Origin: Isoetes taiwanensis
Lineage: Eukaryota; Streptophyta; Lycopodiopsida; Isoetales; Isoetaceae
Direction: 5' to 3'
Assembly (NCBI GenBank): GCA_021234155.1
Contig: JAJEKV010000019.1
Coordinates: 19,839,359 to 19,903,358 of the forward strand
Length of the DNA: 64,000 nt
Shown here: in pieces, positions 9,991 through 59,452 of the stretch
Layout: each line of letters starts with the position of its first letter
How positions within the stretch are numbered: the stretch's first letter is position 1
Program-made: the position numbers and the translations under genes
The notes under the pieces: generated by a model
Database searches by the model: none
Seen by the model: the letters and a program-made list of their open reading frames with translations, nothing else
Told to the model about the DNA's origin: nothing

Positions 9991-12006
9991 TTAAGGGTGC
10001 CAGCAATGATTGATGTTATCCAAGAATCCTACAATCCTCATCCAGAAATCAAGTTGTTGAATGAGACTTATGATTTTAAAGAACTGATTTTTTGGAAAGA
10101 CCCGTTAGGTCACTGTGCTATTGAGCCTCTAAGAAATATCACGTTCTCACATCAGATCAAAATCTCACTTAAAGATGGGAAAAGCCAGCCTACGAGGCAA
10201 GAAATATGCTACATCGAAGGAGTGGTAGCCAGCAGAAGGAATACAGTTCATTCAAACCAGTCCTGACATTACTTCTATGCTCTCAGCAGAGCAAATGCCT
10301 TTACAGCCCAGCCAACTATCGTACCATTATGGTCAGTTCTGTCTTTGCCAAGTTGCTTGCCGGGATTCTTGAGTAGCGACTGACACTTTGGGTAGAGGAT
10401 GGAGAAGTGCGGGCTCTCACGCAGGCAGGCTTCCGCCCCCGGCATTCTACTATTGACCATATCTTCACTCTGCGAACACTCATAGAGGATAGCCGGAATC
10501 AACGCCAGAATCTGTACTGTTGCTTTGTGGATTTCGCAAAGGCTTTTGACACATTGCCTCGGGATAAGTTGTGGGACAGATTGAGACAGCTAGGGACCCC
10601 CGTCGACTTGCAGAATGCTATATACGACTATCTGAGGGCTTGCTCCGGTCGTCTCACAATGTCGAAGGAGCCCGTTGTTAGTAGCATTGGGGTGCGCCAG
10701 GGCTGCCCTCTATCCCCGACGCTCTTCGGCTTGTACATTGACCAGCTAGAAGAATGGCTAGGCGAAAGCACCTGAGGGGGCGCTGGTTGATGCACCACAT
10801 AATCCGGCAACTCATATATGCCGATGATGTTGACCTGCTTTCGATATACCCCGGAGGACATGCAACGCCACACGGATGCTTTGGACACTTTCTCGCCAAT
10901 TCATCGACATAAGAGTTAACTTGGCCAAGACAAGGGTGCTCGCTGGTCCCATCATCCCGGCACCCACGCCTTTCCTCATTCACTTACGAGGCGGGTAGTG
11001 GAGGTGGCTCCGATCTTATAAGTATTTGGGCATTGAGTTTTCTACTACCACACACCGGGATGCATCCATCGGGTTACGGTCACCTGCAGTCGGAAAGCCC
11101 CAGATGCAATGCAAAACAACGATCACAAGGCGTAGTATGCATGGGGTCACCAGGCACACTTGTTCGTGGCCTTGGTTGAACCGGGTCCTCCTCTATGGGG
11201 CGTATGTGGGGGCGGTGATATCCCTCACCACTTGGAATGATCTAGAGCAGTGTGAAGGCCTTCTTGGCCCGGGCACGGGAGTGAAGTCCACGGTCCCATA
11301 TCGATCTTGCTCCGGGGAGACGGGCTTCCTTCCATTCTGAGGGGGTCTTGGAACGTCACATTATTTACTTCCGGAAGGTGGTGGCTATGGATGAAGCCCG
11401 GCTGCCCAACCTTGCTTTGGCGGTGGCGATGGGCCCGCGACTCAAAGCCTGCTTTGGAAAGACAAGCAATCCCAGTGGTTCGCTATGGAATGTGCAGGCA
11501 CACGATGTGGACCCGGTCATACACCGAAGGAACGCTACGCCTTGAAGCGATACTTGGATGCTTGCTTCATGGCCAAGCTTTGGGATCACAGAGGCCCCGT
11601 CACATGTCAAGGTGGCAAATTATCGACACGAGGTTAATCCCATGCTCACGAGGGGCCTACACCACTACCTGCGCACCCATCTACCCATGAAAAGCGCGGG
11701 GGTGATTGCTTCTATTCGCACGGGTGCACACCACCTCCAGCGTTGAGGCAGACGTATGCCATTGAGGATGAAAGTCACGCCCTCCGGGCTTTGTCCGTGA
11801 TACCGGATATCCGGGCTCGATATGCTTTCGGTTAGTTGTGCCCCATCGGGCCTTGCATGAGCTCTTGAAGCACGGCCTCTGTAGGCTTGTTGGGATCGTA
11901 CCTCGGGAGGTAATGGATCTGCCGGACTCGATTATGCCCCCGTCCGACATTAACCTCGGTTGTACTTGTGATTATGTATATAAGCGTGCGGTATGTCGAC
12001 ATCCTT

Positions 12007-26530: not shown

Positions 26531-28002
26531 TTGATCTCCTATTATGGCCCTTTCTTCATCCATTTCGACGTCTACCCATCGTCCCACCTGCTACAAAAAA
26601 TGGCGAATAGTACCAATATTTTGACTGTTAAGGATCTGTTTGATGATAATAACCAATGGCTTTCTTGGGAGGAGGTTAAGAAGTTGGTGAACGGGAGTAA
26701 AACTTATAGATCTATCTATAATCATGTTGTGAGGATATATTCTCGTCATCTCAGTAAGGATGGATCTGGAGAGAGCTTAACCTCCCTGATTTGGCTTTTT
26801 AAAATAAAAGGCTATTACAAGGTTTCTAAAATCTACCATGCTTGCCTTCCTACTAAAGGTGCGAAACATGGTACTCTTCAGGGTCTCTCACTTGATAAAT
26901 TCAAAAGCATCTTGTGCGCTCTAGCTGGAAATCCTACTCTTGTCCCAAAAATTAAAGTCTTCTCTTGGCTTGTGCTCCATAATGCTCTTCTCAGTAATAT
27001 CAATATGATTAAGAGGGATTTTAAATCAGTCCTGAACTCTACCCGCTCTCTTTGTAAGACCCATGATGAGACTGTGCTTCATATTTTCACATGCCCAAGA
27101 GTTTGTAGTTCCTACTGTTGGCTGTCGCAGATAGGTCCCAAAGTGAAGCTCCCTGACATGGACTCAGCCCTAGCACTTCCCAATTTTTTCAATCTCAAGA
27201 CTGTATTGTCAATACTTCTGTCATCCAGCTGGCCTTATCGATTGTTTGGAAGAATAGAAAAAATGTGATCTTGGCAAATAGGAAATGTGACCTCACTTGG
27301 ATGAAACTTAATTTCCAATTTGAATTCATCAGATGTGCCTTGGCCCATAAGGTTGCTAGAAAGGAAAAATATGACTCTGATTGGATTCATTGGGGAGAGT
27401 TTAAGTCCGCTTTCTTTGTTTGCTTTGACTCATTGATTGATCAAAATTCATTCCTGGATTGCAGCATTCTTGAACAGTGTGGTGTAGGTGTTCAGAGGTG
27501 TCAGGCTTCCTGATGATGTTTCCAATGATCATACAGGTACTCCGCATAGGGCCATCTTTTGACTGAAATTTTTGCTTCAGGAGGCTTATAACACTTACAT
27601 TCTTCACAAGTTCATTGGTTCCCACAACCGTCTGCTCACAGAGAATCAGTTTTGTTGTTTGCGCTCTATATATTACTGTCATAAGAAGAGTTGTGAATCT
27701 TGCAATGGAGTGCTTTTGGATAATATGCAAGTCCCTATTAATGAGTTGTTACTGCTACTCATTCATTCCAGGATCTCCTTGTTATTCCACCTTCTTTGCT
27801 TTGAGTACCATACCTGCGTAGCCTTCCTGTTTTGCCAATTTGCCGCGCCGACTTCCTACTGCTCTCTGTTTATTCTGTTGTCTATCTGGTTCATGGTTGG
27901 ACATAATTTGTGTTCATCAGGTTCCTATTTTGGTGATGATTATCTGATGTTCCATAGTATGTGCATCAATTCTATTCTATTCTATTCTATTCTATTCTAT
28001 TC
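26531..28002 (+). mobile_element. LINE 3' fragment with zf-RVT domain and (ATTCT)n tail
   Basis: The frame 26531-27268 encodes the C-terminal zinc-binding region found after plant LINE reverse transcriptases: LVPKIKVFSWLVLHNALLS, then CKTHDETVLHIFTCPRVCS with the expected Cys/His pattern. No RT catalytic box precedes it, so the copy is strongly 5'-truncated. A 3' UTR follows to an (ATTCT)n array at 27969-28002. The array is bracketed by the near-identical phrases CATAGTATGTGCATCAA and CATAGTATATGTATCAA. It differs in sequence from the LINE at 10.3-12.2 kb but shares the tail type. Confidence 0.75.
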
Positions 28003-31397: not shown

Positions 31398-31462
31398 GCA
31401 TCAAACAACCATAGGATGTAATTCAGCCTGTGTTTGTGTTGGTGTTGGTGTTTTGTGTAGTG

Positions 31463-33015
31463 ATGGTGAAGGATATGGTGATAGTCACATCAACATCCAT
31501 GATAAAGCCTTCACCTCCAACGCCTCAGCCATGCAAATATGCTCTTTCTAATTTCGATCTTGTAACAACTTGCAAAGATTATGCAAGTGCAGTGTATTAC
31601 TACAGCCCCCATGAATCAATGGTCAATGTCATAGCATCTCTCAAGGAGTCCCTAGCCAAAACTCTCCACATATTCTATGTTCTTGCAGGACGAGTTGAGG
31701 AAACAAGTGATGGAAAGATGGAGGTGAACTGCAATGACAAAGGAGTTATGTTTGTTGAAGCATTCGCTGATGCCAGATTCATGGATTGGGATGGCAACAT
31801 GAGATGCTCAAGCATTGTCGAGTCTCAGCTTTATCCCAATGATACTGTTATAACAGATATGGCCACAGCTCCACCTCTTCGTCTCCAGGTATGTCTTATC
31901 CCATCATGGATGTTAAAATTTCAATTCAATTCAATTCAATTCTATTCTATTCTATTCTATTCTATTCTATTCTATTCTATTCTATTTCATTTCATTTCAT
32001 TTCATTTCATTAATGCACATGCACGTTGTCTTCGCAGGTTACACGCTTTAATTGTGGTTCCATCTCCGTGGCATTTAACATGTGGGAGCTCATCATTGAT
32101 GGGTTTTCTGCAAACCTTTTTATGAACACATGGTCTGAAATACATCTAGGACAACCCATTTCTAAGCCATGCTACATGGGTACCCATCTTCTGCAAGCTC
32201 GGAACCCTCCTCGTGTGAATGTGCCAATTAGGGACTACATTGTAGTGGAACCACAAAAAGAAGTTGCAAAAGTTGAATATATCCAAAAGGTCTTTGATAT
32301 TTGCCCCGAAAATATCAGCAAAGCTGTGATGGAGATCCAAAATGGCCCTTATAAATATGGCCATGTCAGTGCATTTGAAGCCATTTGTAGCATTGCATGG
32401 AAGGCCATAACTCAAGCACGTAACTTGCCGGATCAGATCACCACAAGATTCCTCTATCCTTACAATCTCAGAGTCCAAAATCGATGGAGCCCTCCTCTTC
32501 CTGAAAACTATTTTGGCAATGCAGCTCATGTTGCATCCCTGCCAGCCATGGCTGGGGAAATCAAGTGTAATCATGTTTCCTACGCTGCCAAGTTGATCCA
32601 TGATGACATTAAAAATATCACTCTTGAAGATGTCAAGTCCTCAATAGATTGGATAGAAATACAACTTAGGGAAAAGAGAGAGCTCAGCTTTAACATAGAT
32701 TATTGCTCAGGAACTGATATTCATAATACCATCCTTGTCAATTTTCCTTCGTACCAAGTGGATTTTGGATGGGGAAAACCTGCACTTTATTCTATGATAG
32801 TGAATGCATCATACGGAGATGGTGTTGCTTTTCTTTTGCCATCACCTCAAGGAGGAAGACATAGACGTTTGGCTATTGCTTTGCAACAGTTCGCAATGGA
32901 TCGTCTTCTGCAAAACCCCTTGTTCATGGCTTTGGTCACCCCAATAAAAGACAATATCAAAGGTCATAGAACCCAGATAGCCAATGATTTGGAATATGCA
33001 CAATCCCGATTGTAA
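31463..33015 (+). CDS. BAHD-family acyltransferase with altered HXXXD motif
   Basis: BAHD proteins transfer acyl groups from CoA thioesters to alcohols or amines in plant specialised and cell-wall metabolism; the closest style here is hydroxycinnamoyltransferase. Exon 1 is 31463-31888 and exon 2 is 32038-33015, giving 467 residues, normal for the family. The N-terminus has IKPSPPTPQP and LSNFDLV. The centre has ISVAFNMWELIIDGFSA followed by NTWSEI, and the C-terminal DFGWG is intact at residues 384-388. The position of the catalytic base, His of HXXXD, is Glu159 (codon GAG), while Asp163 and the following Gly are kept. The frame is otherwise open and well conserved, so this is probably an expressed but catalytically changed or non-catalytic member, as described for CER2-like BAHDs. 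The start at MVKD was chosen because upstream in-frame Met residues precede a hydrophobic stretch not typical of the family; MVIV at 31475 is equally possible. Confidence 0.88.
31889..32037 (+). repeat. BAHD intron filled with pentanucleotide microsatellites
   Basis: The 149-bp intron has a GTATGT donor and a TTCGCAG acceptor. About 90 bp of it are three consecutive pentamer arrays: (TTCAA)n at 31920-31940, (TTCTA)n at 31941-31985 and (TTTCA)n at 31985-32011. The middle array equals the LINE tail of this genome, so the intron may hold a tail-only retrotransposition scar that later mutated at both edges (inference). Confidence 0.8.
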
Positions 33016-40902: not shown

Positions 40903-42433
40903 TGTGACGGCCCCAGCTCATATACGATGCCCTGATCGTGTACAAACTGGAGATCATCCCTCAAACCAGCATCTGCTCGCTGACGTGAGGCCGTCCACCT
41001 AACATCGGGCTCTTGATGGTGGCCAAGAACCCGACGGGAAAGAATGGACGTGTCATTCATCCCGTCTCCCTCGGGATCGATCTAACTGCGGAAGCGTAAA
41101 CACACATGAGCACATAACATAAATCAATAATAACATACCCACCTCGAAGGGTGGTCCACCATATCACAATGGTGATCAACACATCAAGACATCAAAGATA
41201 ACATAGGGAAGTCCTACCTGTGCTCGGACTCATGGGGAAAGACCCGATGGCTTGGGCTCCCGGATAGCAATGCGCATGTAATTCATGGCAAATGGATTTG
41301 GTCGGCATAGGAACATGGCCGTTGGGTAGTCCACTCCATCCGCCCCTCCTGTGCATACTTTGCGGATAGGTGAAAAGTATTGGAGCCCCACCGTGACGTC
41401 CGGTGAATAGCCGAGGGGCTACTACTACCGGGTTGCATCTCCCCAGCCCGATGAGGCAGAGGAGATCACTCTCCTCCGTAAGGTTCATGCCAATCACAGG
41501 CGAGCTAGAGAGCCACCGTCAGATATCGACTTGAACCCCTAGAAGATGACGATCACCCAAGAGGTGTCGAGCCCATACCCCGCCTCATGCGGTGCCGGGA
41601 TATTAGGCCTAGCTCACAACGTTCTCCTACCGCCGCTACGCACTGCAGGGATCAATCGTGATTAGAAAAGCCCTCCCTTGTCACCCGGTCTAGCTCCGCC
41701 ACCCACGTACCAAAGGGCTCTTATGCACAGCCGCATTAATGGGAATTAATGGGCTAAAACTAGGATCATCCATCTACTTGGGCTCGGGTCTCTACCCCCT
41801 TCCCAATACACAAGAGTGGCGATAGAATGTCAAACATCAACACAAATAACTGAAATAATAGAATACATCTATTCTAATCTACCTAATCATACATGGTTAG
41901 GTTCCTTTGTTAGTGTTTATCATTCTTAGGGTCAGAGGGGTCGCCTATAGCTAAGAATGGATACTAATCCTATGGAATGAGGGCTGAAAACTCGGATCTA
42001 ACTATCGGATCAACCACTAACCCGCTTCTTGGCTGGCTCCCACTCCTCTAAAAGCGTCCATGCTGCTGGATTTCGAGACTGCTAGTCTTGGATCGAGCTG
42101 CAACCTAGGAATTCCGATTCCTCTGCTACTCTTCAGGCGAAATGACGTCCAATGCTGCTCCAATCCAACCTATAGGGGCTGGAAACCGAAAGCGTTTCCC
42201 TTTTAGGGTTTATGCCCCTTTATCCCCACGAATTTTAGGGCTGGGCCCTTTTGGTCAATGGGCTATTGCCACATGGCAAAAGATATTATATTCACATGTG
42301 GCCTTAACATGTGCAATATAATGGTTCACTACCCTTTACGGTCGCCGTGTACATGTCATCTGAGTCGACATGTACTAGTGACGTGTCAGTATAATATACG
42401 TATTCATACCGTATGTTATGCTGGAACGTCACA
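40903..42433 (-). mobile_element. LTR_A: 3' LTR of a minus-strand retrotransposon
   Basis: It is 1531 bp. On the minus strand it begins TGTGACGTTCC and ends GGGGCCGTCACA, giving the short terminal inverted repeat TGTGACG/CGTCACA. A polypurine tract lies directly before its 5' end and a homologous LTR_B lies at 54700. The left edge abuts the LINE at 40228 once the MITE is removed. Compared with LTR_B, many CG sites here are TG or CA there, so LTR_B has decayed more. Confidence 0.8.
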
Positions 42434-45400: not shown

Positions 45401-47240
45401 CAAGTCCGCGTGCAAGTTATCGGCTCGCCTCGTCTCGCCTCACCTAATTGCTCCTCCATCGGCTTCCAATCTTCCTTGTTTGATCCCCTCGGTCACATGG
45501 CTTGGACATTGTCACGTTCCTCAGTGCTATGCCGTCTTCTTGTCTTGAGGTACCCTCCGGTGGTTTTGATTGTGCCCGTCAGTTTTGATCCTCCTGTTGC
45601 CTCTAGGGAGCTCGTTGATGCCGGGTCGTTCCTCCTTCGTACTTGCTCTTCCATTTTGATCTTGGGCTATAGTTGTGCTTCCTTGCTTCCTCATTTGGTA
45701 GTCGAAGTGAAGGAGCTTCCTGATCTAAGCGCTAAATCCGTAAAACATGACTTTAAACTCATGTTTCTCCACTATATCTGTGAGCACCCGATCATATACA
45801 ATAGACATATATGCATTTACATTGGGATTTTAATTCATCCACTTTTTCAAAACAACTACGAAGATCTACTTAAATGTTTATACTCCTTTAGGGTTTCCCC
45901 TCCTCCTATCGCGTTTGATCCTTCGGTTTTGCTGCATCTTCTTCGTTCTGGTTGACTCCGGGATTCCTTGAGATGTTGCTACTATTGTTGAGCTTCATGT
46001 CTGATCCGAGCTCGTCACCCCAAGTTGCGAAGAGTGTTCGTCGATGTGGTCCCTTGAAAAAGATGCTCCTTCTTAATGTGCATGTCTGTCGTAAGGAATG
46101 CGGTGACCGCTCAACGTCCCTATATGCAGTGTGTCGTTGCAAGGTTGCCGATGTGCGGTGCCATTGATCGGTTGATCACCTAGCTGTTGCAGTCGGGCGT
46201 TCTTGAATGTCTTCGAAGCTCTGAGATCGTGGTCGGTAGGCAGGCATTGTTATTCTTCCGCAGGTTGAACTTCTGGGTGCGACTTCTGTTGCTTGGGCTT
46301 TGCTTCATTCCGAGGTCTCTCTTGTCCGTGGAAGTGTGGTCATCTCCATTGCACCTACCATAGCTCCTTCTCTTTGCGTGATTTGTTCCTGCTGTCTAGG
46401 TCGTCTCCTCCGTTCTTTGTGACCTATCCATTCGAGTCTCGCACTCCTTATCTGCCTGTAGATCGGCCGGGTCCTCGATGTCTTCAAGAAGTTGCGCCTC
46501 TAGCTCTTCTTTGGCTCTGGCCTTATACTTCGAAAGCAACGCTCGTATATCCTAGAGTCTAAGGGTCTACTTGAAGGGTTCCCCTACAACATTCTGGGCT
46601 CTATAAGTAAGCAAGATGGCTCGAGCAGCATTACTGGAGACATCTATAATCTACAAGTCTATGGACATTAGGACGTGTGGTATGGCATGAAATGAGGTTT
46701 GTTTTGCAGAGCCTTCATGATGTTTGAGGCATACTCTAAGGTCCTAGCAAAGTTGGTTTGGGAGAGTCCAATCTCTACACGTGGAGTGACTTGGGCAGCT
46801 CTAGACTCTGGCTCCTTTCTAGGTGTCCTGGCAATAGGGAGTGTCAATGTGGCAGCTGTATAGGTCAAACTCTATTAGAAGGACACAAAATTAGGTCAGG
46901 GTTTATGCCTTTGGCATGAGCAGAGGTGATGTACCAACAGTTGGACTTGGGTTGCTATGCTGAGGTCTAGATGACTATAATAAAGGGGTGTTCTTGGGCA
47001 CTTCTATCTAGGAGTAAGGCATCAGCTTTGAGCCGAGAGCAATACTTGTGAGGTACTAATGGGATATGCTTCTATTTACAAACAAACCACAGTTTGGAAA
47101 AACAATTCAAGGGTTTGAGCAATTTTAGTCATTTTGAGCTGGGGTCATAAATGGATTCTAGGCTGTCTAACGGTCCTATTGGAACAAATTTCAGGCGATT
47201 TGGAGCTGTGTAGCTCAAGTTATGGGGTTTGAAAAATCGG
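42447..47240 (-). mobile_element. Internal region of the retrotransposon, no pol seen
   Basis: From 42447 to 45812 it is homologous to 56178-59446. The distal 2.7 kb (42447-45180) is AT-rich and non-coding. On the minus strand short charged frames at 46868-46668 (SQTNFARTLEYASNIMKAL), 46487-46305 and 45459-45184 (EPKDGRFKEQLQKRTTPEEY) could be pieces of a gag-like polyprotein. No CCHC knuckle, protease, RT or integrase motif was found. This suits a non-autonomous LTR element (LARD or TR-GAG type) relying on a partner in trans. Confidence 0.5.
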
Positions 47241-47243
47241 ACC

Positions 47244-47513
47244 CCTCTAAGAGTGCGCGAGGAGGGTGTTAGGTTGGGACCTAAGTGGCCTCTGGCGCAC
47301 TCTTGGAGGTGTTGGTCTATCTGGATGCCAAGAACAAGTTCAAAGACGTGAATTCCTACTTATTTTCCTCTTAACTGCAAGTTTCTTTGCTTATTTACTT
47401 CATTTGGAGCAGGTAAGTGGCTGATCAAGGGCCCAGTTGGCTGGACCCCTCTAAGAGTGCGCGAGGGGGGGGTTAGGTTCAGACCTAACTGTGCTCTGGC
47501 GCACCCTTAGAGG
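47244..47513 (-). repeat. Leader hairpin array, left half (two units)
   Basis: Two 66-nt inverted repeats at 47244-47309 and 47448-47513. CCTCTAAGAGTGCGC pairs with GCGCACYCTTRGAGG, and an inner TTAGGT pairs with ACCTAA. The spacing is 204 bp. The same unit occurs three times at 53951-54444. The array is interrupted by a 6.4-kb block that contains host genes. Confidence 0.75.
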
Positions 47514-47654
47514 TGTTGGTCAAAATTGGACATTTGCTCCTTAACTACTACTATACTTAATTCAATGCACGTTTTAAACAACTATATATCCTTATTATTC
47601 AAAAATTTCACACTTTCCATATAAGCCTGTTAGTTAGGAAAAGTAGTTTCTGTT

Positions 47655-48287
47655 CTATTTATCTGTCCTCTTGATGTATTTGGCCAGTCTCATGTCCTTT
47701 GGCTGAAGCGTGACTCTTTTTGCATGGACCGTGCATGCCAGTGAATCTTCGAAGTGTTGCACGGCCTCCATCTCTGCTGCTTCTTGTAAAGCGAGTAACA
47801 TGTCGTTGGTTACTCGCTTGTCGGGGTCGAAATCCCACAAAATCTCCCGGACAAATCTCTGGAATGCAGCTCTGAGGATAAGAAATCCGTAACTCCGTTG
47901 GAAGTGTCGGATTTCTCGCAAGGCTTTCCCAAATACTGAATTTTAAGATCTTCTCTTGGGCTTCTGTGGGGGGTCCGGAAGCTCTGGTGGGGGTTTCAGC
48001 CGGAGTGTCTCACGTGTTGGCCGCCCTCCTTCAATATATTTTACCTTGTATGCCTCGTAATAGGCACTGTACTCGGTGTGCATCCTCTTTGCCTTCTCTT
48101 CTTTCCTCTTGGTCCTCTCTTCTTTCTTCCGCCTCTTCTCTAGATTTCGGTAGTATCTAGGTCGCCTCTCCATGTCGGCCTTCAGTTTCTCTTCAGCATC
48201 CTTGAGTTTCTGCTCGGCGGCGAGGACTTGGGCGCTGGGCTTATCATCGTTGCTTACCTTACGAGCGGTCTGCTCCGTCCTAGCCAT
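47655..48287 (-). CDS. Histone H3-like protein with charged insert and in-frame TAA
   Basis: The reading frame begins MARTEQTARK, matching the H3 N-terminus except Lys4 to Glu, with Lys9 kept. About 100 residues rich in Lys, Arg and Glu follow (EQKLKDAEEKLKADMERR, EKRRKKEERTKRKEEKAK), then a Pro-rich linker ending KPKRRS. A TAA stands at 47945-47943. In the same frame the H3 histone fold follows: ALREIRHFQRS, AAFQRFVREI, ALQEAAEM, HFEDSLACTVHAKRVTLQPKD, ending at TAG 47655. The fold has canonical helix and loop lengths and loop 1 is not extended, so it is not a typical CENH3. The full frame is 209 codons plus the internal stop; canonical H3 is about 136. A perfect donor (AAG/GTAAGC) overlaps codons 9-11, and an acceptor at 47937-47936 would skip the TAA in frame if donor 48262 is used. 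It could be a variant gene, a spliced gene or a recent pseudogene. The H3 relationship itself is clear. Confidence 0.8.
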
Positions 48288-48497: not shown

Positions 48498-48526
48498 CTA
48501 GTAATGGTGCCCAGCGTTGCTGGGCA
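48498..48526 (-). mobile_element. Helitron-type 3' terminus
   Basis: On the minus strand the hairpin TGCCCAGC-AAC-GCTGGGCA (48526-48508) is followed 6 nt later by CTAG and host T. The element extends towards higher coordinates and its 5' end was not found. It lies about 210 bp upstream of the H3-like ATG, just outside the telo-box promoter. The hairpin differs from the one at 33650, so these are two families. Confidence 0.55.
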
Positions 48527-49749
48527 TAAGTTGGGAATCTGTATAGACGGAAACCTGTTCATCTCAGACTCCTTTTCATAAATCTAATATAATAAAAACG
48601 AAATCCAGTATTCTTGGGCTATAATAGGTTGTTGTGTACTTGACACCCTTTTTCATTTCTCTTTCTATTTTTTATTTTTCCATACCTTTTTCCATTCCTT
48701 TTTCCTCACCTTTTTTACATGCTCCTCATCCCTTTCATCTTCAAAGTTTTTCCGTGCCCTTCCCCTCTTCTTCTTTTCTAATTTCCTATCCCGTTTCCTC
48801 GTGCACCTTTTCCCTTCCCTTTTCCCCTCTCTGCCTCCTTTTTCGTTTTTCCTTTCCCTTTTTATTTTCCCATGTTCTTTTTTTTGTCTCTCCACCATTT
48901 TTCGCTTCCCTTTTCCTCCTTTCCTCACCCTTTCCTCTTTCCCTTTTTCTGTTGCCCTTTTTCCCTTCCTTTTCCTCCCTCCCCCTTTTCTTTTACCTTA
49001 TTTTTCCTTAAGGTAGCCTAATAATATCCAAAATGTTTTAAATCACTATTGTTCTAATATTTAATATCTAAGCTCAATAGTAAACATGTGCCTGGAGTAT
49101 CCATGCATTAGTAGGTATGTTTATATGGAGTTGATACCCTATAGCGTACAAATTTTTTGACTAATTAGTTTTGGCCATGTCTCTCCACGGAACCTCTCTT
49201 GTGTGTGTGTGTTCTTTTCTTTTTCTTTTTTTGTTTTCTTTTTTTTTTTTTAAGAGAAGGAGGAGGAGATTTTAAACATATCCTGGCAACACATAACATA
49301 TGTAGGGGTACGTGTATGTACGGATATGGTGTCTATATGGATAGGAGTGTGTTCGTTCCCAATAGAAGTGGCAATTCCATCAAATGCATAATCAACAAAC
49401 ATATATGTGATATTGGACAGAATGGCCATCATGGTGTAAACAAAGATCCACTCTATAAGGCTCTTTAAAAATTAGAGAATGGAATGATAAACATATGCAA
49501 ATGATTAGATTAGTATCTTTTCGGGGCAAAGTGAATTATGTCGTTTGAATGCAAAGTGTATGAAATTATAAGATTACACATTAGTGGTACTTAGTTGAAA
49601 ATATCCATCATGGTAGATAGATTTGTGAACGCCATTTTAGCTTTTAAGAAAAATGCTATTTTATCTACAGACAGAATGCCCTTTGTTATCTATCGAATGT
49701 TTAACTTCTGCTCTTTTGATGTTCTATTCTATTAACTAGCCCATTGTAT
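48527..49749. other. Low-complexity pyrimidine tract and spacer
   Basis: 48630-49010 is almost entirely C and T on the plus strand (repeated CCTTTTTCC, CTTTCC, TTCCCTTTT). It yields spurious long ORFs on both strands that I do not accept as genes. 49199-49250 is a (GT)n and poly-T run. No gene recognised. Confidence 0.6.
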
Positions 49750-49815
49750 GGGTCCCATGACCTATTGGTCTTCGTGGACGTTAAAAAAACTATTCTATTC
49801 TATTCTATTCTATTA
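49750..49815 (+). mobile_element. LINE 3'-end module with (ATTCT)n tail
   Basis: GGGTCCCAT, TTGGTCTTCGTGGACG and a short A run are followed by (TTCTA)n. This matches the last 45 bp of the LINE at 12098-12184 (GGGTCCCAT, TTGGTCTCCGTGGACG). It is either an extreme 5' truncation of that LINE or a SINE sharing its 3' end. Confidence 0.7.
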
Positions 49816-50254
49816 AGGACAATGGTCGTTAAAGGTGCATTTAAGCTTGTATATTTTATAGATTTATACTACTTGGGACTTCAAATGGTTTCAAAATAAA
49901 CTTGTTTGTACTTTTTAACGGGAATGCCAACAAATAATCTTTGAGATGTCAAATGACTTTGATGTCATCACAATTGTCGGGATTGTAATGAACATCATGA
50001 ACATTACATTGGTAACTACATTTATGCCAATTTATATAATTATATAATACTCAAAATGCAAGGAATGATCACTGCATTTATCAATGTCGATAGCCATCAT
50101 CCATCATATCTTGAATGAGCATCTAGAAAAGCAAGCTTGCCGAATGAATAAAAGAGGTAAATTATCTAAAAACAAAAAAAATGGAGGATTATGCTCAATA
50201 ACGTAATAGAAATACTTGTATTTTGATTGCAAGGAGATCACATGGAATTTGAGA

Positions 50255-51095
50255 TATTCTCATGAGTGTGTATCTCATGGTGTAGAGAGAAAGGTCTACC
50301 TATAATACCACCTACAACCTGTACAATGAAACTATGCAATCAAATTTAATATACAATTGCATGAGGCTTTCGATGCCACCTACAACCTGTACAATGAAAC
50401 TATGCAGTCAAATTGATTATACAATTACATGAGACTTTCGATGCATGAATATGCTATAAGGACAGAGGACACAATCTCTAATAGACTTGCCATGTTATTA
50501 TTTAATGTGGATGGCTATGATCAAGATTGGCCAGTGGTTGGCTATGTCTATGGCTATGTGCAAAGCAAGAAAAAAATGTTGGAAATAAGAATTAGAAAAT
50601 AGAAGGCGGCCTGAACACCACAACTAGATTTTTGAGCTCATCCCATGAAACTAAAAGACTGCTCATGTCTTGGCATTTCTATAAAAAAGAGATTAGAAGT
50701 GGAGTCTGAGATCTGTAGTTTTTCTTATCATCATATTCTATTCTATTCTCATGAGTGTGTGTCTCGCAGTGTAGAGAGAAATGTCTATAATACCACCTAC
50801 GACCTGTACAATTAAACCATGCAGTCAATTCTAGTATACAATTGCCTAAGGCTTTGGATGCATGAATATGCTCTAAGGACAGAAGACGCAATCTCTAAAG
50901 AACTTGCCAGATTGTTATTATTTAATGTGGGATGTCTAAGCAAGAGTACAATGCTGGAAAAAAGAATTACAAAATAGAAGGCAGCCTGAACAACGCAGCT
51001 AGATTTTTGGGCTAATCCCATGAAACTAAAAGACTGTTCATGTCTTGGGATTTTTATAAAAAAGGGATTAAAAGTGGACCTTGAGACTGTTCCAT
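50255..51095. repeat. Tandem duplication of about 450 bp with LINE-type tail at the junction
   Basis: The section 50255-50710 (TCATGAGTGTGT, CCACCTACAACCTGTACAAT, GCATGAATATGCT, CTAGATTTTTGAGC, CCCATGAAACTAAAAGACTG) is repeated at 50748-51095 with about 10% divergence. Unit 1 contains an inner duplication of about 80 bp. A (TTCTA)n stretch sits exactly between units at 50737-50750. No reading frame survives in both units. Confidence 0.75.
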
Positions 51096-51099
51096 TGAC

Positions 51100-53120
51100 A
51101 AAAGAAGAATCCCTATTTGTATTTGAGGAGCAGAGGAAACAAAGCAAAGATCTATTGGCATCACAACGAAGAAAATATTATTTTGTGACAATAACAATCA
51201 TAGGAGATAGGCACCCCATCCTCCATCTAGTTTGAATGAGTGCAATGAGTGACCAATAGCACAGACTTTGGTGCCAAGAGCAGAATCGAGAAGAGGAAAC
51301 AGTGGGTGTTTTCAGCCACAATAATTGCATAACAATGGTCAAATATTGTGATAAACTTACTCAGATGTCTGAGTGCCAAATGGTAAGGCTGAACTACTGC
51401 AAATGTTCAAGTTGTTTCAAAGTAGGAGTAGTACTTGCTCAGTAGCTGGGTGGCACTGCCTCCAAATGCTCAAATGCTGGAGCAAATGATACACCAAAGC
51501 TGGAGACAAAACAAAATAAAATTAGCCTTCTATACAACTTTATATCAAAAAGCTTACAAAGGATACCTTGAATAAGAAAAAAAAAAAACTGGAAATTTTA
51601 TACCATAGCCAAACTTCATGGACGGCTAGCTCCAAAGTGAGAAGCCTGCAAATAAAGAGCCTCGCCCTGATCAGAAGACCTTCAATAAGCCCATGTGGGC
51701 AACAGATGTTTGGCCTGATGCATCGACTCTAGAGCTCAGATTTGGGTTACAGGCCACATGTAACAAATAACCAAGCTAGAGATGCAGATCAAGACATATG
51801 ACATTTGCCTTATAGGATTCCATGACCTGCAGCAGGTTGTGTATAATGGGTATGGTGAGGCTATAATATTGTCACAACAATTATTATTACTATAATTATT
51901 ACTATGAAGATGACCTTGCACTTTTCAAGCATGTTTAGGAAGTGTAAATAATTGCCTTCTTATGTAGCATGTTCCAGGTTCTAATGGAGGACCAAAGCTT
52001 CCTCATCAAGATAACTATTTTTTGTGTAACAAACGCTAGTCTAGAAATAGACTTTCCAAGAAATTATACCTATCCAATCAGAACATTCAACCTGCAATGA
52101 GGTATCTAACCAGGCTACATGCACTTGTAAAACGGGGAACTCAGCTGTGATAATATGAAAAGTACGATGGTTGTTTTAATTTTAAGGGAAAGAACATCAC
52201 ATTTGGGGCAATCATAAATAGAGAAGAGTTACTCTTACCTCAGATGGCGAGTAATTTCTTGGAAGCGAAGCCCATTGTGCCAATTGCCTGTGCATCCAAT
52301 GAACCAATTGTTGAACCTAAATGGTTGGCACAGAGAATAGAGCCCATCTGCAACAACGAAGGGGACTTTCCTTTGCGGGATTATCTTGAATTAGAGCACA
52401 TTCTGATCAGAACGTCTGAAACACAGACCGCATCATTGATTATGAAGGAGCATAATATGTTGAAATAGAGTATGTTCTGATCAGAATGTCGGAAACACAG
52501 AATGCTTCATTGATTCTAAAGGAGCGTAATATGAAGAAGAATACCTCAGCGCATGCAAAGGCCTCTTCCCAGCAAAAGCTTAGATAACCTGCCAAGAGCT
52601 CTGCTAGGTTTGTTCTGCCATTCTCGGCATTCACCATATGCGCGCATCCGTAGACCTTCACTTGATTTTTTAGAAATGTTAGAAGCAATGCTGGCTTCAT
52701 GTTTTGTAATGTGTGCACTGTGCATTTGGTACATCTCAAATTTATCTTTGACTTTCCATAATCCATATCTTGCATCTGCCAGCTTATCTTACTATGTAGT
52801 CCCATAAAGAAAAATAATACCCATATCCTAGTTTCAAGTTCCACCCATCATCCAAGATAATCCAGCACGTTGGTTTTTTCCAAGGTCCATTCCACACATA
52901 CCTCTCACTCATACTATAACTGTATATTCTCAAGCAGCGGCTGGAAACCAGAAAGATGAACTAAACAAATGCCTCCCAACACAAGCTGGCAAACCATAGA
53001 CATTATTTAGAAAAATCCATATTTCTCTGCCATGTCATTGCATTCTGATGATTATTTTTTCAGAAAATTTTCCAATTCAATCCTAACTTATCATCTGTTT
53101 TGTACATTGCAGCAGTTTGA
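51100..53120. other. Region downstream of GRIM-19, no recognised gene
   Basis: It probably includes the GRIM-19 3' UTR near 52850-53120. A plus-strand frame 52244-52468 (MASNFLEAKPIVPIACASNE...) has no recognised domain. A 74-bp tandem duplication at 52391-52534 (LEHILIRTSETQTASLI / IEYVLIRMSETQNASLI when translated) shifts frame between units. A consensus minus-strand donor (CTGAG/GTAAGAG) lies at 52235-52246, so an unrecognised minus-strand exon is possible. Confidence 0.4.
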
Positions 53121-53733
53121 TTACCAATAGTCTCCAATTAGCTTGCCTGTCGCCGGAGGCATCCATCTGCCAGAATTGTACACATTTTCTCCAACCTTCC
53201 AGCCTGGGGCATGAGCCATGATCCTCGCTTCTTCTTCAAGTTGTTTTTGGTATTCCTTAACGAACCTAAGATAGATAACTAACAATCAGAATCACCTTGC
53301 CACTAAACGTGATAAAAAGTTAGTACTACCTCAAATCTTCCTCAGCTTGAAGAAAAGGCATTATAGCTTGTCGACCGGCAATCTTCTCAGCTTTCACAGC
53401 CCTGTAATTTAATTTATTCATATAAAATTTAGGAGTCTGCATATACCCGCAAAAAGCAACCACAGAATTTACCGATGATCATGTTGATTTTGCTTTGTAT
53501 TGCGATTATTGTTTCATTTACAACTATGGAGGATTCAGCATAGAGACAGAGAAACACACCTGCGATACTTGTTGCCCTGTCCAACCTGATAAAGCCCATA
53601 TGAAATAATGAGGGCAGCTCCAGTGAAGATGGCAACTGCACTGGGTCCAGTGTTAGAGGGGCATGTCTTGAAGGGGGGGCATGTCCTTGACACTGGCCAT
53701 GCCCTTCTGGCCTCGGATTAGAGTTTCCGTCAT
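53121..53733 (-). CDS. NDUFA13: GRIM-19/NDUFA13-like complex I subunit, exon 1 internally deleted
   Basis: This is a small membrane-anchored accessory subunit of mitochondrial NADH dehydrogenase (complex I), needed for assembly. Exons on the minus strand: 53733-53560, 53401-53330 and 53265-53121, with GT-AG junctions and consistent phases. Exon 1 opens [20 protein letters not shown] and later gives [20 protein letters not shown] and [10 protein letters not shown], the transmembrane helix. Exon 2 gives [23 protein letters not shown]. Exon 3 ends with [21 protein letters not shown]. Between LQDMP and NTGPS the conserved GGF/VRYARR segment is absent and the frame changes (a TAA results), which looks like a deletion of about 40 bp. 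The rest is highly conserved, so this is a recently broken copy or an assembly error. Splice sites show that it is genomic DNA, not a retrocopy. It lies between the two LTRs. Confidence 0.82.
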
Positions 53734-53868
53734 AGCTACAGCTGCTTGGAGCTTCCGGTGTTCGGATCGTTCGTCTTCCCTATATTGTTCGAAAGATTGG
53801 CAAATCGTAATCATAGGATAAAGTGATTAAACCTCAGCCATTGGATCTAGGGCGTGGTCCATTACTTG

Positions 53869-53958
53869 CACTAAAACATTATAATATAAGATTTTTCCTC
53901 AAACCCTTCTAAGCACTAAAACATTATAATATAAGATTTTTCCTCAAACCCTTCTAAG
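53869..53958. repeat. Perfect 45-bp tandem duplication
   Basis: Two identical 45-bp units, 53869-53913 and 53914-53958, run directly into the first hairpin unit of the right array. The unit contains TATATTATA-like AT sequence. A perfect copy implies a recent event, and it marks one edge of the gene-bearing block. Confidence 0.8.
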
Positions 53959-54444
53959 CATGCGCGAGGAGCGTGTTAGGTCCAGACCTAACTATGCCCT
54001 GTTGCATCCTTAAAGGTGTTGACCTCTTTTTGCTTTAAACTTATCCAATTTAAACAAATTAACATGCATTTCTAACTAATTTAAGCATTATAAGCAAGAT
54101 TCTATCATTACTTTTAGAATTTAAGTAAATTTGGATCAAATTTCGAGGTCACTTTTAGGGGACCCCTCTAAGTGTGCGCGAGGAGGGTGTTAGGTCATGA
54201 CCTAACTATGCCCTGGCGCACCCTTAGAGGTGTTGCTCCAAAAATGACTTTTACTTAATGTTTTTCTGTGTTTTAACATACAAATCTAGCTAATTCGAGC
54301 TTTTTAAGCGGGATTTCATCTTATATTTTACAATTTGGGGCTCCTAAGGCCGAGTTCTAGGGTTCATATGGGGTGACCCCTCTAAGAGTGCGCGAGAGAC
54401 CCATTAGGTATGGACCTAACATGCTCCTGGCGCACCCTTGGAGG
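53951..54444 (-). repeat. Leader hairpin array, right half (three units)
   Basis: Three inverted repeats at 53951-54015, 54165-54230 and 54379-54444, period 214 bp, with the same stem arms as the units at 47244 and 47448. They follow the primer-binding site by about 240 bp in the element's sense direction. They therefore lie in the 5' leader, where packaging or dimerisation structures are expected in LTR retroelements. Confidence 0.75.
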
Positions 54445-54686
54445 TGTCGGCCGAAAGTGCCTGAAATTTATTAGGCTCTCTTAGGTGCTTTTCTTCTATT
54501 TGTTCATCTTACTTATGTTCTCTAATTATCCTAATTCTAGATGATTACTAACTCTACCCCGGGAAGAAAAAATTTCCCACTACTCGAGGTTCGTGCTTGG
54601 GCTTTTATCTCCAAGACTGAATGTCTAGATTAGTTAGTTCCTATAGGATTACGGTCAGTGCTCAATCCTGGTCTGCCAAGATCGGA

Positions 54687-54698
54687 GCTCTGATACCA
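54687..54698 (-). other. Primer-binding site for initiator tRNA-Met
   Basis: On the minus strand TGGTATCAGAGC follows the CCGTCACA end of LTR_B after one base. This is the usual plant tRNA-iMet primer-binding sequence and shows that the element reads on the minus strand and that LTR_B acts as its 5' LTR. Confidence 0.85.
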
Positions 54699-54699
54699 T

Positions 54700-56177
54700 T
54701 GTGACGGCCCCAGCTCATATACGATGCCCTGATCGTATACAAACTGGAGATCATCCCTCAAACCAGCATCTGCTCGCTGACGTGAGGCCGTCCACCTAAC
54801 ATCGGGCTCTTGATGGTGGCCAAGAACCCGACGGGGAAGAATGGACGTGTCATTCATCCCGTCTCCCTCGGGATCGATCTAACTGCGGAAGCGTAAACAC
54901 ACATGAGCACATGACATAAACCAATAATAACATACCCACCTTGAAGGGTGGTCCACCATATCACAGTAGCTGCATCAACACATCAGTACATCAGCATAAC
55001 ATAGGGAAGTCCTACCCAGGCTCAGACTCATGGGGAAAGACTGACGGCTTGGGCTCCCAGATAGCAATGCAGACAGAATTCACGGCAAATGGATTTGGCT
55101 GGCATAGGAACATGGCCGTTGGGTAGTCCACTCCATCCGCCCCTCCTGTGCATACTTTCCAGATAGGCTGAAAAGTATTGGAGCCTGACTGTAGCCTGCC
55201 GGGTGAATAGCCAGAGGGGCTACTACTACTGAGTTGCATCTCCCCAGCCCCGATGAGGCAGGAGGAGATCACTCTCCTCCAGAAGGTTCATGCCAATCAC
55301 AGGCGAGCTAGAGAGCCACTGCTCGTATACGACTTGAACCCCTAGAAGATGACGCATCACCCAAGAGGTGTCGAGCCCATACCCTGCCCTCACGCAGTGC
55401 CAGGATATTAGGCCTAGCTCACAACGTTCCCCGGCCGTCGCTACGCACCAGAGGGATCAACTGTGATTAGACAAGCCCTCCCTTGTCAGCCGGTCTAGCT
55501 CCGCCACCCACAGCCAGGCGGGCTCTTATGCACAGGCCACATTAATTGGGAATTAATGGGCTAAAACTAGGATCATCCATCTACTTGGGCTCTAGGTCTC
55601 TACCCCCCTTCCCAATACACAAGATGTCAAACATCAACACAGAACTGAAATAATAGAATACATCTATTCTAATCTACCTAATCATACATGGTTAGGTTCC
55701 TTTGTTAGTGTTTATCATTCTTAGGCTGTAGGGGTCGCCTATAGCTAAGAATGGATACTAATCCTATGGAATGAGGGCTGAAAACTCGGATCTAACTATC
55801 GGATCAACCACTAACCCGCTTCTTGGCTGGCTCCCACTCCTCTGAAAGCGTCCATGCTGCTGGATTTCGAGACTGCTGGTCTTGGATCGAGCTGCAACCT
55901 AGGAATTCCGATTCCTCTGCTACTCTTCAGGCGAAATGGCGTCCAATGCTGCTCCAATCCGACCTATAGGGGCTGGAAACCGAAAGGGTTTCCCTTTTAG
56001 GGTTTATGCCCCTTTATCCCCACGAATTTTAGGGCTGGGCCCTTTTGGTCAATGGGCTATTGCCACATGGCAAAAGATATTATATTCACATGTGGCCTTA
56101 ACATGTGCAATATAATGGTTCACAAGGTCGTCGTGTACATGTCATCTGAGTCGACATGTACTAGTGACATGTCAGTA
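54700..56177 (-). mobile_element. LTR_B: 5' LTR of the minus-strand retrotransposon
   Basis: Homologous to LTR_A over its length and ending CCGTCACA next to the primer-binding site. The first part (35 bp or more, including the TGTGACG start) and the adjacent polypurine tract are deleted: the sequence jumps from GTCAGTA to GGTTCTCCCCACC. Upstream it continues into sequence homologous to the A-side internal region. LTR_B is thus also the 3' LTR of a further copy, giving an internal-LTR-internal-LTR tandem. Confidence 0.75.
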
Positions 56178-59100
56178 GGTTCTCCCCACCTTGGGATCTT
56201 CCTGTCCTGCAACCGACTTGATGCATGCAATTATTATTATAGTTATATAATTATTAGAATTACTCTAAGGTAATGTTTAAGACCTTACTGTACTATTTGA
56301 TTATCCAATTAACTTATCGCTTCATAACTTAATACAACATTTAAGTTTATCAAAGTTTATCAAGTTCATACAAAATTTACACTTCCAAGGTACTCTTCGT
56401 CCCTTGCAACACGTTATAACAAAATTTGTGTTGCAAGTCTTTGCACCTTGAAATCCTGCATTAATTTTACAATATCTATAATTACATACTTACTATCTCA
56501 CACAAAATTTAAGCGATTAGTTTAAATGGTAGAAATCGCAACTACTCTAGAACTCTTGCTGCGAGAGGATATCTTCGTACTTCCTCCACCAACTGTTGCA
56601 TGTGGGCTAGCATCTGTTAACATTTTTAAGTAAACATGACAGTCTTGGACGCCTGCACGATCCTGCTGGACTTCCCTTAATGCATGCGATTAACATAATT
56701 ACTCTAAGGTAATATTTATGAATTAACATTATCATAGTATCGGATACATTACTTTCGATCGGATACATTACTTTCGATCGTACAATTATATTTACTCTAG
56801 CTTTGCAATATTTAACAACTTTTAGGTCGCGATTATTTAAACAATAACCCTGATTTAGAGCTATTGTTACATAGACAAGGTTTTAATTATCATACACAAG
56901 AATTAGATGTGCTTCTTATTCTCTTCCTTGGGTCCTGCATTACCCTTGGAAGTATATCCCTAAGATGCACTTAAGTATATCTGAATTCTATTTTCTATTT
57001 ATATTTATATGACCCCAGGTTATATAGCTATCCTTGAAGGAATTGCATCCCGCGTAAGGGATTAATTAACATACTCCTCACATTACCGCTGTCCTATTTC
57101 CTATGATACATATATGTACAACAAATTTAAGTGTGGTTATTAGGATTCATATTTAACTGGTCAATAAGACACATTAAAGCTTATTATGCATGGGCACCCT
57201 TACTTCCATACAGACGATCCACCCATTGAGCCGGGCGTGGAGTAATTTGGAGGTGACTTGGTCACAGACGTTCTATAGTTTTGCTCCACTTCATTGGTGT
57301 AGCAGCTACCATGCCGGGCCTCGCACGCTGAAGGCCTCCCTGAGCACTAGCGGTCTATCTATCTACGCTTCTATTCGCTTCGCCATTGCCGAGTGAACTC
57401 TATTCTACTAGTCGTCAATCTTGATGCAAGTATCGCTCAATCATAAGATTGAGCTCCTCCCCACTTCAAAAAGAAAATGGTCCTCAAGACTCTTCAATCC
57501 ACGCTGTACACAACGCCATATCTATTCTTCCCCTTAAGAGGTTATACTTCTTACTTAGCATTAATCACTAGCCTTAGACGTACATATATAACTATCTAAG
57601 ATAATGCACATATTATGCTATCATTTATTTCCAATATAGTTATGGGTTACCTACTTAGTTAGAACAATTCTAAACCACAAGGTTTTGTCATGACGACACC
57701 TTTGTCTCCAAAAGACTATTTGATTACTATAATTCCATTTTAGGATGTACCTTTATATGTATTATCTTTTATATTCTAGAGATTCCCTTTCTTAAGCTAT
57801 TTAAACTCTTGAATATTCCTACTAATCAATTGATGCCATCGCAATGTTGGCCTGACTTTGTTAGATTGCTTCTTTCTTTCTGCTGATTACTTTGGTGCTA
57901 GATTTATACATGGTCAACAATTATCCTTAGTAATGTGATTCCTTCTTAGCTTAGGTGATCAATCCCCACCAAGTGGTTTCAATATGTTGGACGCCTCATA
58001 ACAATCGTGGTATAATTATAGTTACTCATATGCATTTCTTCTCTAACTCGACGCTTTAGCTCAATATCGGGGCAATCCTTTCAAATGAGAATATCCGAAA
58101 TGCCTTCTTAACCTGTAATATATGGATGTTACCGTCTACATTTCATCTCTACTAGGCCCCATGGCCGATCCTTGAGCTTGTTAGAAGCTTATCCACTCAA
58201 GGTTCGCTTGAAGTAGCAAGGTGACGCTCTTCGAAGTCACATACTTCAAATTTTGATCAAGTGGCTCCTCTTTATGTAGAGAAGGACTTTGTTCGCTAGA
58301 AGCCTCCTCATTGCCGTGGCTTTGATGGTGTAGTTGATCACTCTTTGAATCCTCCATTTTCAAAAGCCCTCAAGGTGGCTTGAAAAAAAAATCTTTCATC
58401 TTGAACTCTTTGTCTTGGCAAACAAAGGACGCATCAGATCCTGATATTGTTTCTTTCGACTCATCGACGCCTCATTAATGTCGAGTCCTCTCATGTCTCA
58501 AGAGTGTTGAGGATGTTGGCTGCTTCACCTCGCGAATTGCCCGACATCTTTTCCTTTGATTTGTTACGTTTATGGAGGGAGGGGAATAACAAGGGAACTA
58601 TATATATGCAAAGCATATAGCTTTATATAATTGGCTAAATTACTACTAGAGCTATTAAGTCCCCCTTATGCTTCCTTCGAAGTTGCACACACCTACCCTT
58701 GGTAAATGTCATCACCTGTTCCTCCCGTGCAATGGTGTTGACGATCTATATCCTCCTATTTGTAATAACCGTGCATTCCTGAAAGTGACTTGTTGATATA
58801 CTTGGGCCGTCCGATGTTTGTTGGCTATTGCACAACACGCTTTGCATCACATTCTAACTAAAGGTGTGCTGGTCGTTGATGCTTCTCACATTCTCAGTCT
58901 CCGCTTCCCCGACATCCCCGTTTCTCAAGCGTAATTGTTCCCCTTCATGATATCACTTGAAGCTATTTGGAGGCGCCTCTTGAGGTCAAAAGCGATTTCT
59001 TTGGCTATACTCCTCCTCGAGTTGTTCTCTCGGCAGCTTGTTCTTTGAATCGCCCATCCTTGGGTTCACTGCCGTGGCGTAGTCCACAAGGTGTTATCGC

Positions 59101-59452
59101 TCGCCACCCACTGTTCTTCCCTCCATCGCTTCCAATCTTCCTTTGTTTGATCCCCCGGTCACATGGTTTTGACATTGTCACGCTCGCCATATGTCAGTCT
59201 TCACTTTGAGGTACCTCCGTGGTTTTGATTAAGTCTTTGATCCTCCCCGTTCTAGGAGCTCGTTGATGCCGGGGTCGCTCTCCTTCAGACTTCTGTTTCC
59301 TTCCATTTTGATCTTAGGCTGCGTTGTGCTTCCTTTGCTTCCTCATTTGGTAGTCGGCGGAAGGAGCTTCCCGATCTAAGCTTAAACTGTAAAACATGAC
59401 TTTAAACTTCATGTTTTCCACTATATCTCGGAGCACCCGATATACAATAGAC
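56178..59452 (-). mobile_element. Internal region of a second, tandem copy (B)
   Basis: Homologous to about 42450-45812 with numerous small deletions and C-to-T/G-to-A type differences. The short gag-like phrase EPKDGRFKEQ is still readable near 59050. Homology stops at 59447-59452 (TAGAC), where another retroelement is inserted; the missing remainder would lie beyond the window. Confidence 0.7.

Follow-up and report, generated by a model that had tools for sequence, protein, structure and literature searches.

A decayed histone H3 reading frame in Isoetes taiwanensis and its putative Ty3/Gypsy retrotransposon carrier

Introduction

Does the histone H3-like reading frame at positions 47655..48287 of a 64-kb stretch of Isoetes taiwanensis DNA (hereafter the window) represent a new H3 variant of the plant, or does it belong to something else that carries it? 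In histone H3, an N-terminal tail of some 40 residues leads directly into the fold, and in CENH3 loop 1 of that fold is longer than in H3. The frame departs from both patterns, and a first-pass annotation of the letters had taken it for a host variant gene. We describe here the locus, its relatives in the same genome and the DNA that surrounds them.

Results

The frame lies on the minus strand, from an ATG at 48287 to a final TAG at 47655-47657, and it is interrupted by an in-frame TAA at 47943-47945; the first-pass annotation had overlooked both strand and stop. Codons 1-10 (48258..48287, minus) read MARTEQTARK, an H3 tail mimic, so that the nine-residue H3 N-terminus with Glu at Lys4 had been correctly recognised. 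It is followed by 104 mostly K/R/E-rich residues (47946..48257, minus), by the TAA as codon 115, and by an H3 histone fold (47658..47942, minus) recognised through Pfam, PDB and genome matches and by alignment. Taken alone, this fold matches Pfam Histone with an E-value of 3.1e-20 and H3 chains of the PDB with an E-value of about 1e-21, and its loop 1 aligns at the same length as in canonical H3, as expected from the complete fold with canonical loop length described earlier. The part before the stop, tail and insert together, had no match in Pfam or the PDB, and none of 51 candidates from a search of 5.8 billion proteins, which covered proteins of up to 367 aa, reached an E-value of 10. Inside the 64-kb window, tblastn found no further H3 copy.

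Comparison with copy C1035a indicated that 552 nt have been lost in frame from the window gene, between AAGAGGA repeats (join near 48090/48089), and that 19 sites separate the remaining 633 nt from that copy. At the position of the TAA, CAA was read in all four copies located by an exact 14-base anchor (seven were searched), and the stop has thus arisen by a single substitution in what is a sense codon in these other copies. The insert of about 100 residues and the stop are therefore both products of decay: the charged stretch that had been reported does exist, but as the remnant of a basic and linker region left by the deletion. Among the copies listed, the joined form was also found in C549 (96% over 107 residues). 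K4E and the 100-residue insert, previously proposed as defining traits, are features of one decayed copy or subfamily.

The genome searched comprised 1,658,258,908 bases in 1,110 contigs. With the window fold as query, at least 150 scored matches (8,044 first-look candidates) were obtained on at least 78 contigs, at 69-100% identity; 124 of the 150 fold matches listed contain no inner stop, and uninterrupted relatives are present in the same genome. When canonical H3 was the query, 15 matches at 88-99%, corresponding to host-type genes, were obtained together with at least 135 further ones at 55-87%. Degenerate DNA patterns for MARTKQTARK and for the (x)ALQEAAE motif of helix alpha-2 matched 1,051 and 1,606 places genome-wide, with none for the reversed controls; these counts include host genes and concern the matches alone, with no surrounding element implied. 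The tail was spelled in 38 ways at the DNA level among the 68 listed places entered. When these 68 tails were paired with 98 listed motifs on one strand within 2.5 kb, 11 pairs were obtained, with the canonical spacing of 271 nt in two host H3 genes vs. 996-1179 nt in the other nine; in the element-borne H3, no tail of about 40 residues runs directly into the fold. A local tandem array at G000:C217:120970-132589 consists of three identical copies of the exact H3-tail sequence, spaced about 5.8 kb from one another on the same strand.

Ten copies of the first family (family 1), read from ATG to stop, encode proteins of 382-406 aa (C120 is frame-shifted at its end) that are arranged as H3 tail, basic region, acidic/low-complexity middle, linker and fold. 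The full-length copy C1035a matched Pfam Histone with an E-value of 1.9e-20. AlphaFold predicted a K/R/E-rich helix over residues 19-111, together with the fold helices, at a mean pLDDT of 55; since the structure models are poor (mean pLDDT 55 and 54), weight is given only to the long helix and, weakly, to the fold helices. All 50 listed Foldseek matches contain histone H3, in nucleosomes, octamers and similar assemblies (best E 6.3e-5, rmsd about 8-10 Å).

Within the tail, position 4 was K in 19, E in 7 and A in 1 of 27 sequences, window included, while position 8 was R in 19 and position 9 was K in 25 of them. The former suggestion that loss of K4 biases chromatin towards silencing is unsupported, because K4 is kept in 19 of these 27 sequences. 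In the fold, residues that we take to form the H3-H3 bundle were retained (C110, H113, A114, R116, L126 and I130 in 11/11 folds, D123 in 10/11), and so were R69, R83, K115 and T118 (11/11 family-1 folds) and R49 and R72 (10/11). Full nucleosome incorporation is nevertheless doubtful, because R42 is replaced by S and the core residue L82 by K in 11/11 folds and R63 is lost in 10/11. This residue pattern fits a protein that would pair with H4 and H3 and grip DNA less well than H3 does. Given the length of the arm that joins it to the fold, the tail would be held away from the nucleosome.

The protein resembles CENH3 in its divergent fold, its ALREIRHFQ start and its long variable N-terminus, but it differs in its C-terminus, and the alignment of family 1 does not contain the longer loop 1 of the CENH3 type. 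No grouping with CENH3 was observed in a tree that included two CENH3 rows and placed family 1 on a long branch, with 15 of 24 inner branches weak. Identity with CENH3 was rejected on these two grounds, the lack of the extra loop 1 residue and the lack of joining in the tree. The statement that the locus fits none of H3.1, H3.3 and CENH3 has held, for an H3-derived protein.

Homology among the copies, at the DNA level, extends beyond the gene into LTR sequence. Paired LTRs, each about 1.57 kb long, flank the gene in the window and in three of the ten 20-kb stretches analysed (c952, c1018 and c1035a); c1080 contains a 6.8-kb tandem, and no direct LTR pair was found within 20 kb in the remaining six. 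Four elements were examined for their edges. Three of them (c952, c1018 and c1035a) have LTR edges TGTGACG...CGTCACA and 5-bp duplications (AGAAC, TCTAG, GTATC), whereas the left edge of the window copy is not clean. A primer-binding site, TGGTATCAGAGC, presumably of the initiator-tRNA type, is present without change after the 5' LTR in c952 and the window; c1035a has an altered form of it, and c1018 has no such site at that place. Ahead of the 3' LTR, c952, c1018 and c1035a contain a polypurine tract, AAGGTGGGGAGAA. The locus annotated as a host variant gene therefore sits in an LTR retrotransposon with many relatives.

The H3 frame is located between the 5' LTR and gag. In the fuller copies it is followed by a second frame (ORF2), Retrotrans_gag/Ty3_capsid, protease, RT, RNaseH, and the zinc finger and core of integrase, whose end comprises a Tf2-1-like SH3 domain and then a weak partial Chromo match. 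The order gag-PR-RT-RNaseH-INT was observed, with frame breaks, in c1035b and c952, and partially in c1039 and c996; neither gag/pol nor ORF2 matches were found in c1035a, c1018 or the window. The Chromo match, from a scan of the integrase end of c1035b only, reached E 0.0015 and 18.9 bits against a cut-off of 25.1, over positions 3-30 of a 53-position profile, and may be shortened because this copy runs into an inverted LTR there. Judged from these domains and their order, the carrier is a Ty3/Gypsy retrotransposon lineage of Isoetes, and it probably belongs to the chromoviruses.

In c1035b (L019 and L020), the right-hand LTR, near L020:7253-8226, is inverted with respect to the left one and the integrase frame ends in antisense LTR, which indicates either a rearranged copy or an assembly join. 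ORF2 (L018:1086-2513 and L051:399-1556; 386-476 aa) gave no convincing Pfam match and is possibly a second captured gene.

The association with gag was also seen genome-wide. An H3 fold lies upstream of 29 of the 42 best-scoring gag matches, counting the locus of the query itself, in the same orientation and no more than 12 kb away; in 27 of these pairs the spacing is 2.1-2.6 kb. Three more of the 42 have an N-terminal match only, and ten have neither among the matches listed. The control orientation gave two pairs. For weaker gag matches, an H3 fold was upstream in only 6 of the 31 entered. Four consecutive gag matches about 2.5 kb apart (G000:C1089:4054484-4062910) form a tandem array of element parts.

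The window element extends over about 56.2-40.9 kb on the minus strand. Its 5' LTR (54700..56177, minus) lies upstream of the H3 frame and lacks its first bases. A second partial copy (59.5-56.2 kb) ends in this same LTR, and the internal 3' part of that copy (56177..59452, minus) lies in tandem and is 86.7% identical to the first. The primer-binding site (54687..54698, minus) adjoins this LTR and is followed by a leader with 79-nt palindromic repeats (53936..54699, minus; repeats at 53948-54459) and by about 5.4 kb of inserted DNA (48498..53935, strand not assigned) ahead of the H3 frame. The copies c1035a, c908, c1057, c1018, c1035b and c952 align across the site without interruption. The 3' LTR lies at 40903..42433 (minus). 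The K2P distance of the LTR pair is 0.062 in the window, 0.024 in c1018, 0.056 in c952 and 0.083 in c1035a. Neither gag, protease, RT, integrase core nor ORF2 gave a match within the window element.

Repeats of 79 nt with near-palindromic ends (ACCCCTCTAAGAGTGCGC ... GCGCACTCTTGGAGGTG) flank the H3 frame on both sides, in the window (47239-47317, 47443-47521, 53948-54021, 54160-54255 and 54375-54459) and also in other copies, and are possible regulatory or recombination sites. The window further contains a BAHD acyltransferase gene in two pieces (31430-33015), separated by a TTCTA-type 5-nt repeat array in a likely intron, and other mobile DNA, namely a DUF7869 fragment and RVT_1 and zf-RVT fragments (588-1061, 10407-10775 and 26531-27268). 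The protein encoded by the BAHD gene was most similar to one from Selaginella moellendorffii (43%, 292 bits), well ahead of the second match at 118 bits.

A second family (family 2, L049) has a different N-terminal domain of about 290 aa, joined to a fold that shares 79% identity with host H3 and followed downstream by a related ORF2 and gag; it has no H3 tail. This N-terminal domain has at least 134 matches in the genome and lies directly upstream of 36 of the 100 non-host folds entered from the canonical-H3 listing. The two families have gag (60% over 163 aa) and ORF2 (25%) in common and do not share their N-terminal halves. Another copy, L052, has an exact tail 1,164 nt upstream of a fold intermediate between family 1, which it resembles at 75%, and host H3, at 61%, both over about 52 residues; its frame contains a stop. 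The lineage may have captured H3 once or twice.

Selection was estimated as dN/dS (Nei-Gojobori) on copies picked for their open frames or their similarity to the window. Between subfamilies, dN/dS is far below 1: for the fold, it was 0.13 (A-B), 0.08 (A-C952), 0.05 (B-C952) and, for a pair with dS near saturation, 0.09 (C952-C1080), and comparisons of A and B with C1080 were saturated. The acidic middle gave 0.28-0.75. Nine group-A folds gave a pN/pS of 0.11, a value biased low by a sample made of the top-ranked window matches. Between c952 and c1039, dN/dS was 0.02 for the gag core, 0.06 for the RT core and 0.04 for the H3 fold, and between c952 and c1035b it was 0.11 for the RT core and 0.05 for the H3 fold, so that the constraint on the fold is similar to that on gag and RT. 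These codon comparisons point to purifying selection on the H3 fold between subfamilies. With such ratios and with uninterrupted relatives in the genome, the family withstands the refuting conditions on intact homologues and on dN/dS that the first-pass annotation had set. In the tail, B and C952 differ by 4.9 synonymous and 0.4 nonsynonymous changes per pair, and C1039 and C952 by six base changes, all synonymous. The tail of C952 differs from that of host H3 at eight bases with unchanged amino acids, and the C1080 tail has three amino-acid changes. The tail is relaxed in subfamily A, given an A-B dN/dS of 0.48 (on 2.5 changes per pair) and frequent R8P or K4E.

Discussion

The window gene is almost certainly the defunct remnant of a histone H3 encoded by a retrotransposon. 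The best explanation as a whole, to which we give a probability of roughly 60%, is that Isoetes Ty3/Gypsy elements carry an H3 frame whose product would act on host chromatin for the benefit of the element. The tail is often kept exactly across widely spread copies, which suggests that the element uses H3 to cope with host chromatin. Some role at the chromatin level is slightly more likely than not.

From a mechanistic point of view, the element H3 protein would be made and would pair with host H4 through its retained H3-H3 and H3-H4 residues, and the paired protein would dock on chromatin or enter it. In family 1 the long arm would then present the H3 tail, and in family 2 a different domain. 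The protein could act as a decoy, a substrate or lure for H3K4/K9 readers and writers that would weaken silencing, and/or as a tether that would guide or shield element DNA; we hold this decoy or tether reading tentatively, at less than even odds. The H3 tail cannot account for the whole lineage, since family 2 has none. Among the elements without a gag, pol or ORF2 match, the H3 frame is broken in c1018 and the window and uninterrupted in c1035a, and its retention there as the only uninterrupted frame hints that the benefit may act in cis. It is conceivable, though improbable, that the element brings its own histone: on element DNA or at target sites, this H3 would pair with the H4 of the host, host enzymes would modify the H3 tail, and the chromodomain-like integrase end or host readers would respond, the element thereby co-writing its own chromatin.

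The main rival to an action on host chromatin is a nucleic-acid packaging or assembly protein, a gag accessory working in the particle. The position of the H3 frame upstream of gag, the K/R/E-rich stretch with its predicted helix over residues 19-111, and a constraint on the fold equal to that on gag are all compatible with such a function, but it leaves unexplained both the exact conservation of the H3 tail and the retained H3-H3 bundle residues, and we consider it unlikely. Gene capture by transposons is known (PMC3538342, PMC9289625), and many copies, the window copy among them, are broken, as a passively captured passenger of no use to the element would be. A passenger is nonetheless very unlikely in view of fold dN/dS values of 0.05-0.13, of the purely synonymous differences between the C1039 and C952 tails, and of the uninterrupted H3 frame in c1035a, an element without a gag, pol or ORF2 match. 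An H3 fold and tail would also be expected of a host H3 variant gene with accidental repeats nearby, but this reading is scarcely tenable given at least 150 scored matches on at least 78 contigs, DNA homology that continues into the LTRs, the fixed gag spacing, and LTR-bounded copies with target duplications. Least credible of all, an intron spanning the TAA, for which GT and AG sites are present and fold-preserving splice models score at most 9.0, was rejected in view of the sense CAA in the 4/4 related copies.

The closest precedent that we found for the Isoetes elements is H3L of the fungus Pyrenophora tritici-repentis, where a hAT DNA transposon carries H3-like genes by transduplication (PMC3538342). 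The two cases share a mobile element that multiplies an H3-like gene outside the H3 and CENH3 groups, insertions in the tail, and the presence of the gene in long and short element forms alike. They differ in the carrier, a DNA transposon vs. an LTR retrotransposon; in scale, 26 very similar genes vs. a diversified set and more than 1,000 exact tail-coding places; and in evolution, since drift was suggested for the fungal genes whereas purifying selection was measured in the Isoetes elements. Ty3/Gypsy elements of orchids that have captured an m6A RNA demethylase domain (PMC9289625) likewise have a host-type regulatory domain in an extra frame kept through amplification, although there the domain is an enzyme in another plant lineage and not a histone. 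Capture of host domains by Gypsy elements is thus already known. Chromodomain Gypsy elements, lycophyte ones included (PMC3350952), have the same gene order and a chromodomain-like integrase end, but the sections of that paper at hand mention no histone frame. Similarly, plant 'H3-like' genes (PMC4357034) encode deviant H3 proteins with K4, K9 and K27 substitutions, but in the available excerpt they are treated as members of the plant H3 family, with neither LTRs nor an insert of about 290 residues mentioned.

Among the listed titles and abstract openings, element-borne histones were found only in PMC3538342, and the word 'histone' is absent from the main texts of the two Isoetes genome papers. 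Within that coverage, we found no printed precedent for a retrotransposon-borne H3 of such number, diversity and constraint.

If a retroelement maintains a core histone gene by purifying selection, this would directly exemplify the use of a histone by a selfish element against host silencing. It would mean that the histone itself, beyond an enzyme or a reader, can be exploited in the conflict with silencing. The Isoetes copies also provide, as a natural series, H3 proteins whose tails are exact, altered or moved, and they raise the question of why one plant genome tolerates more than 1,000 extra H3-tail-coding sequences.
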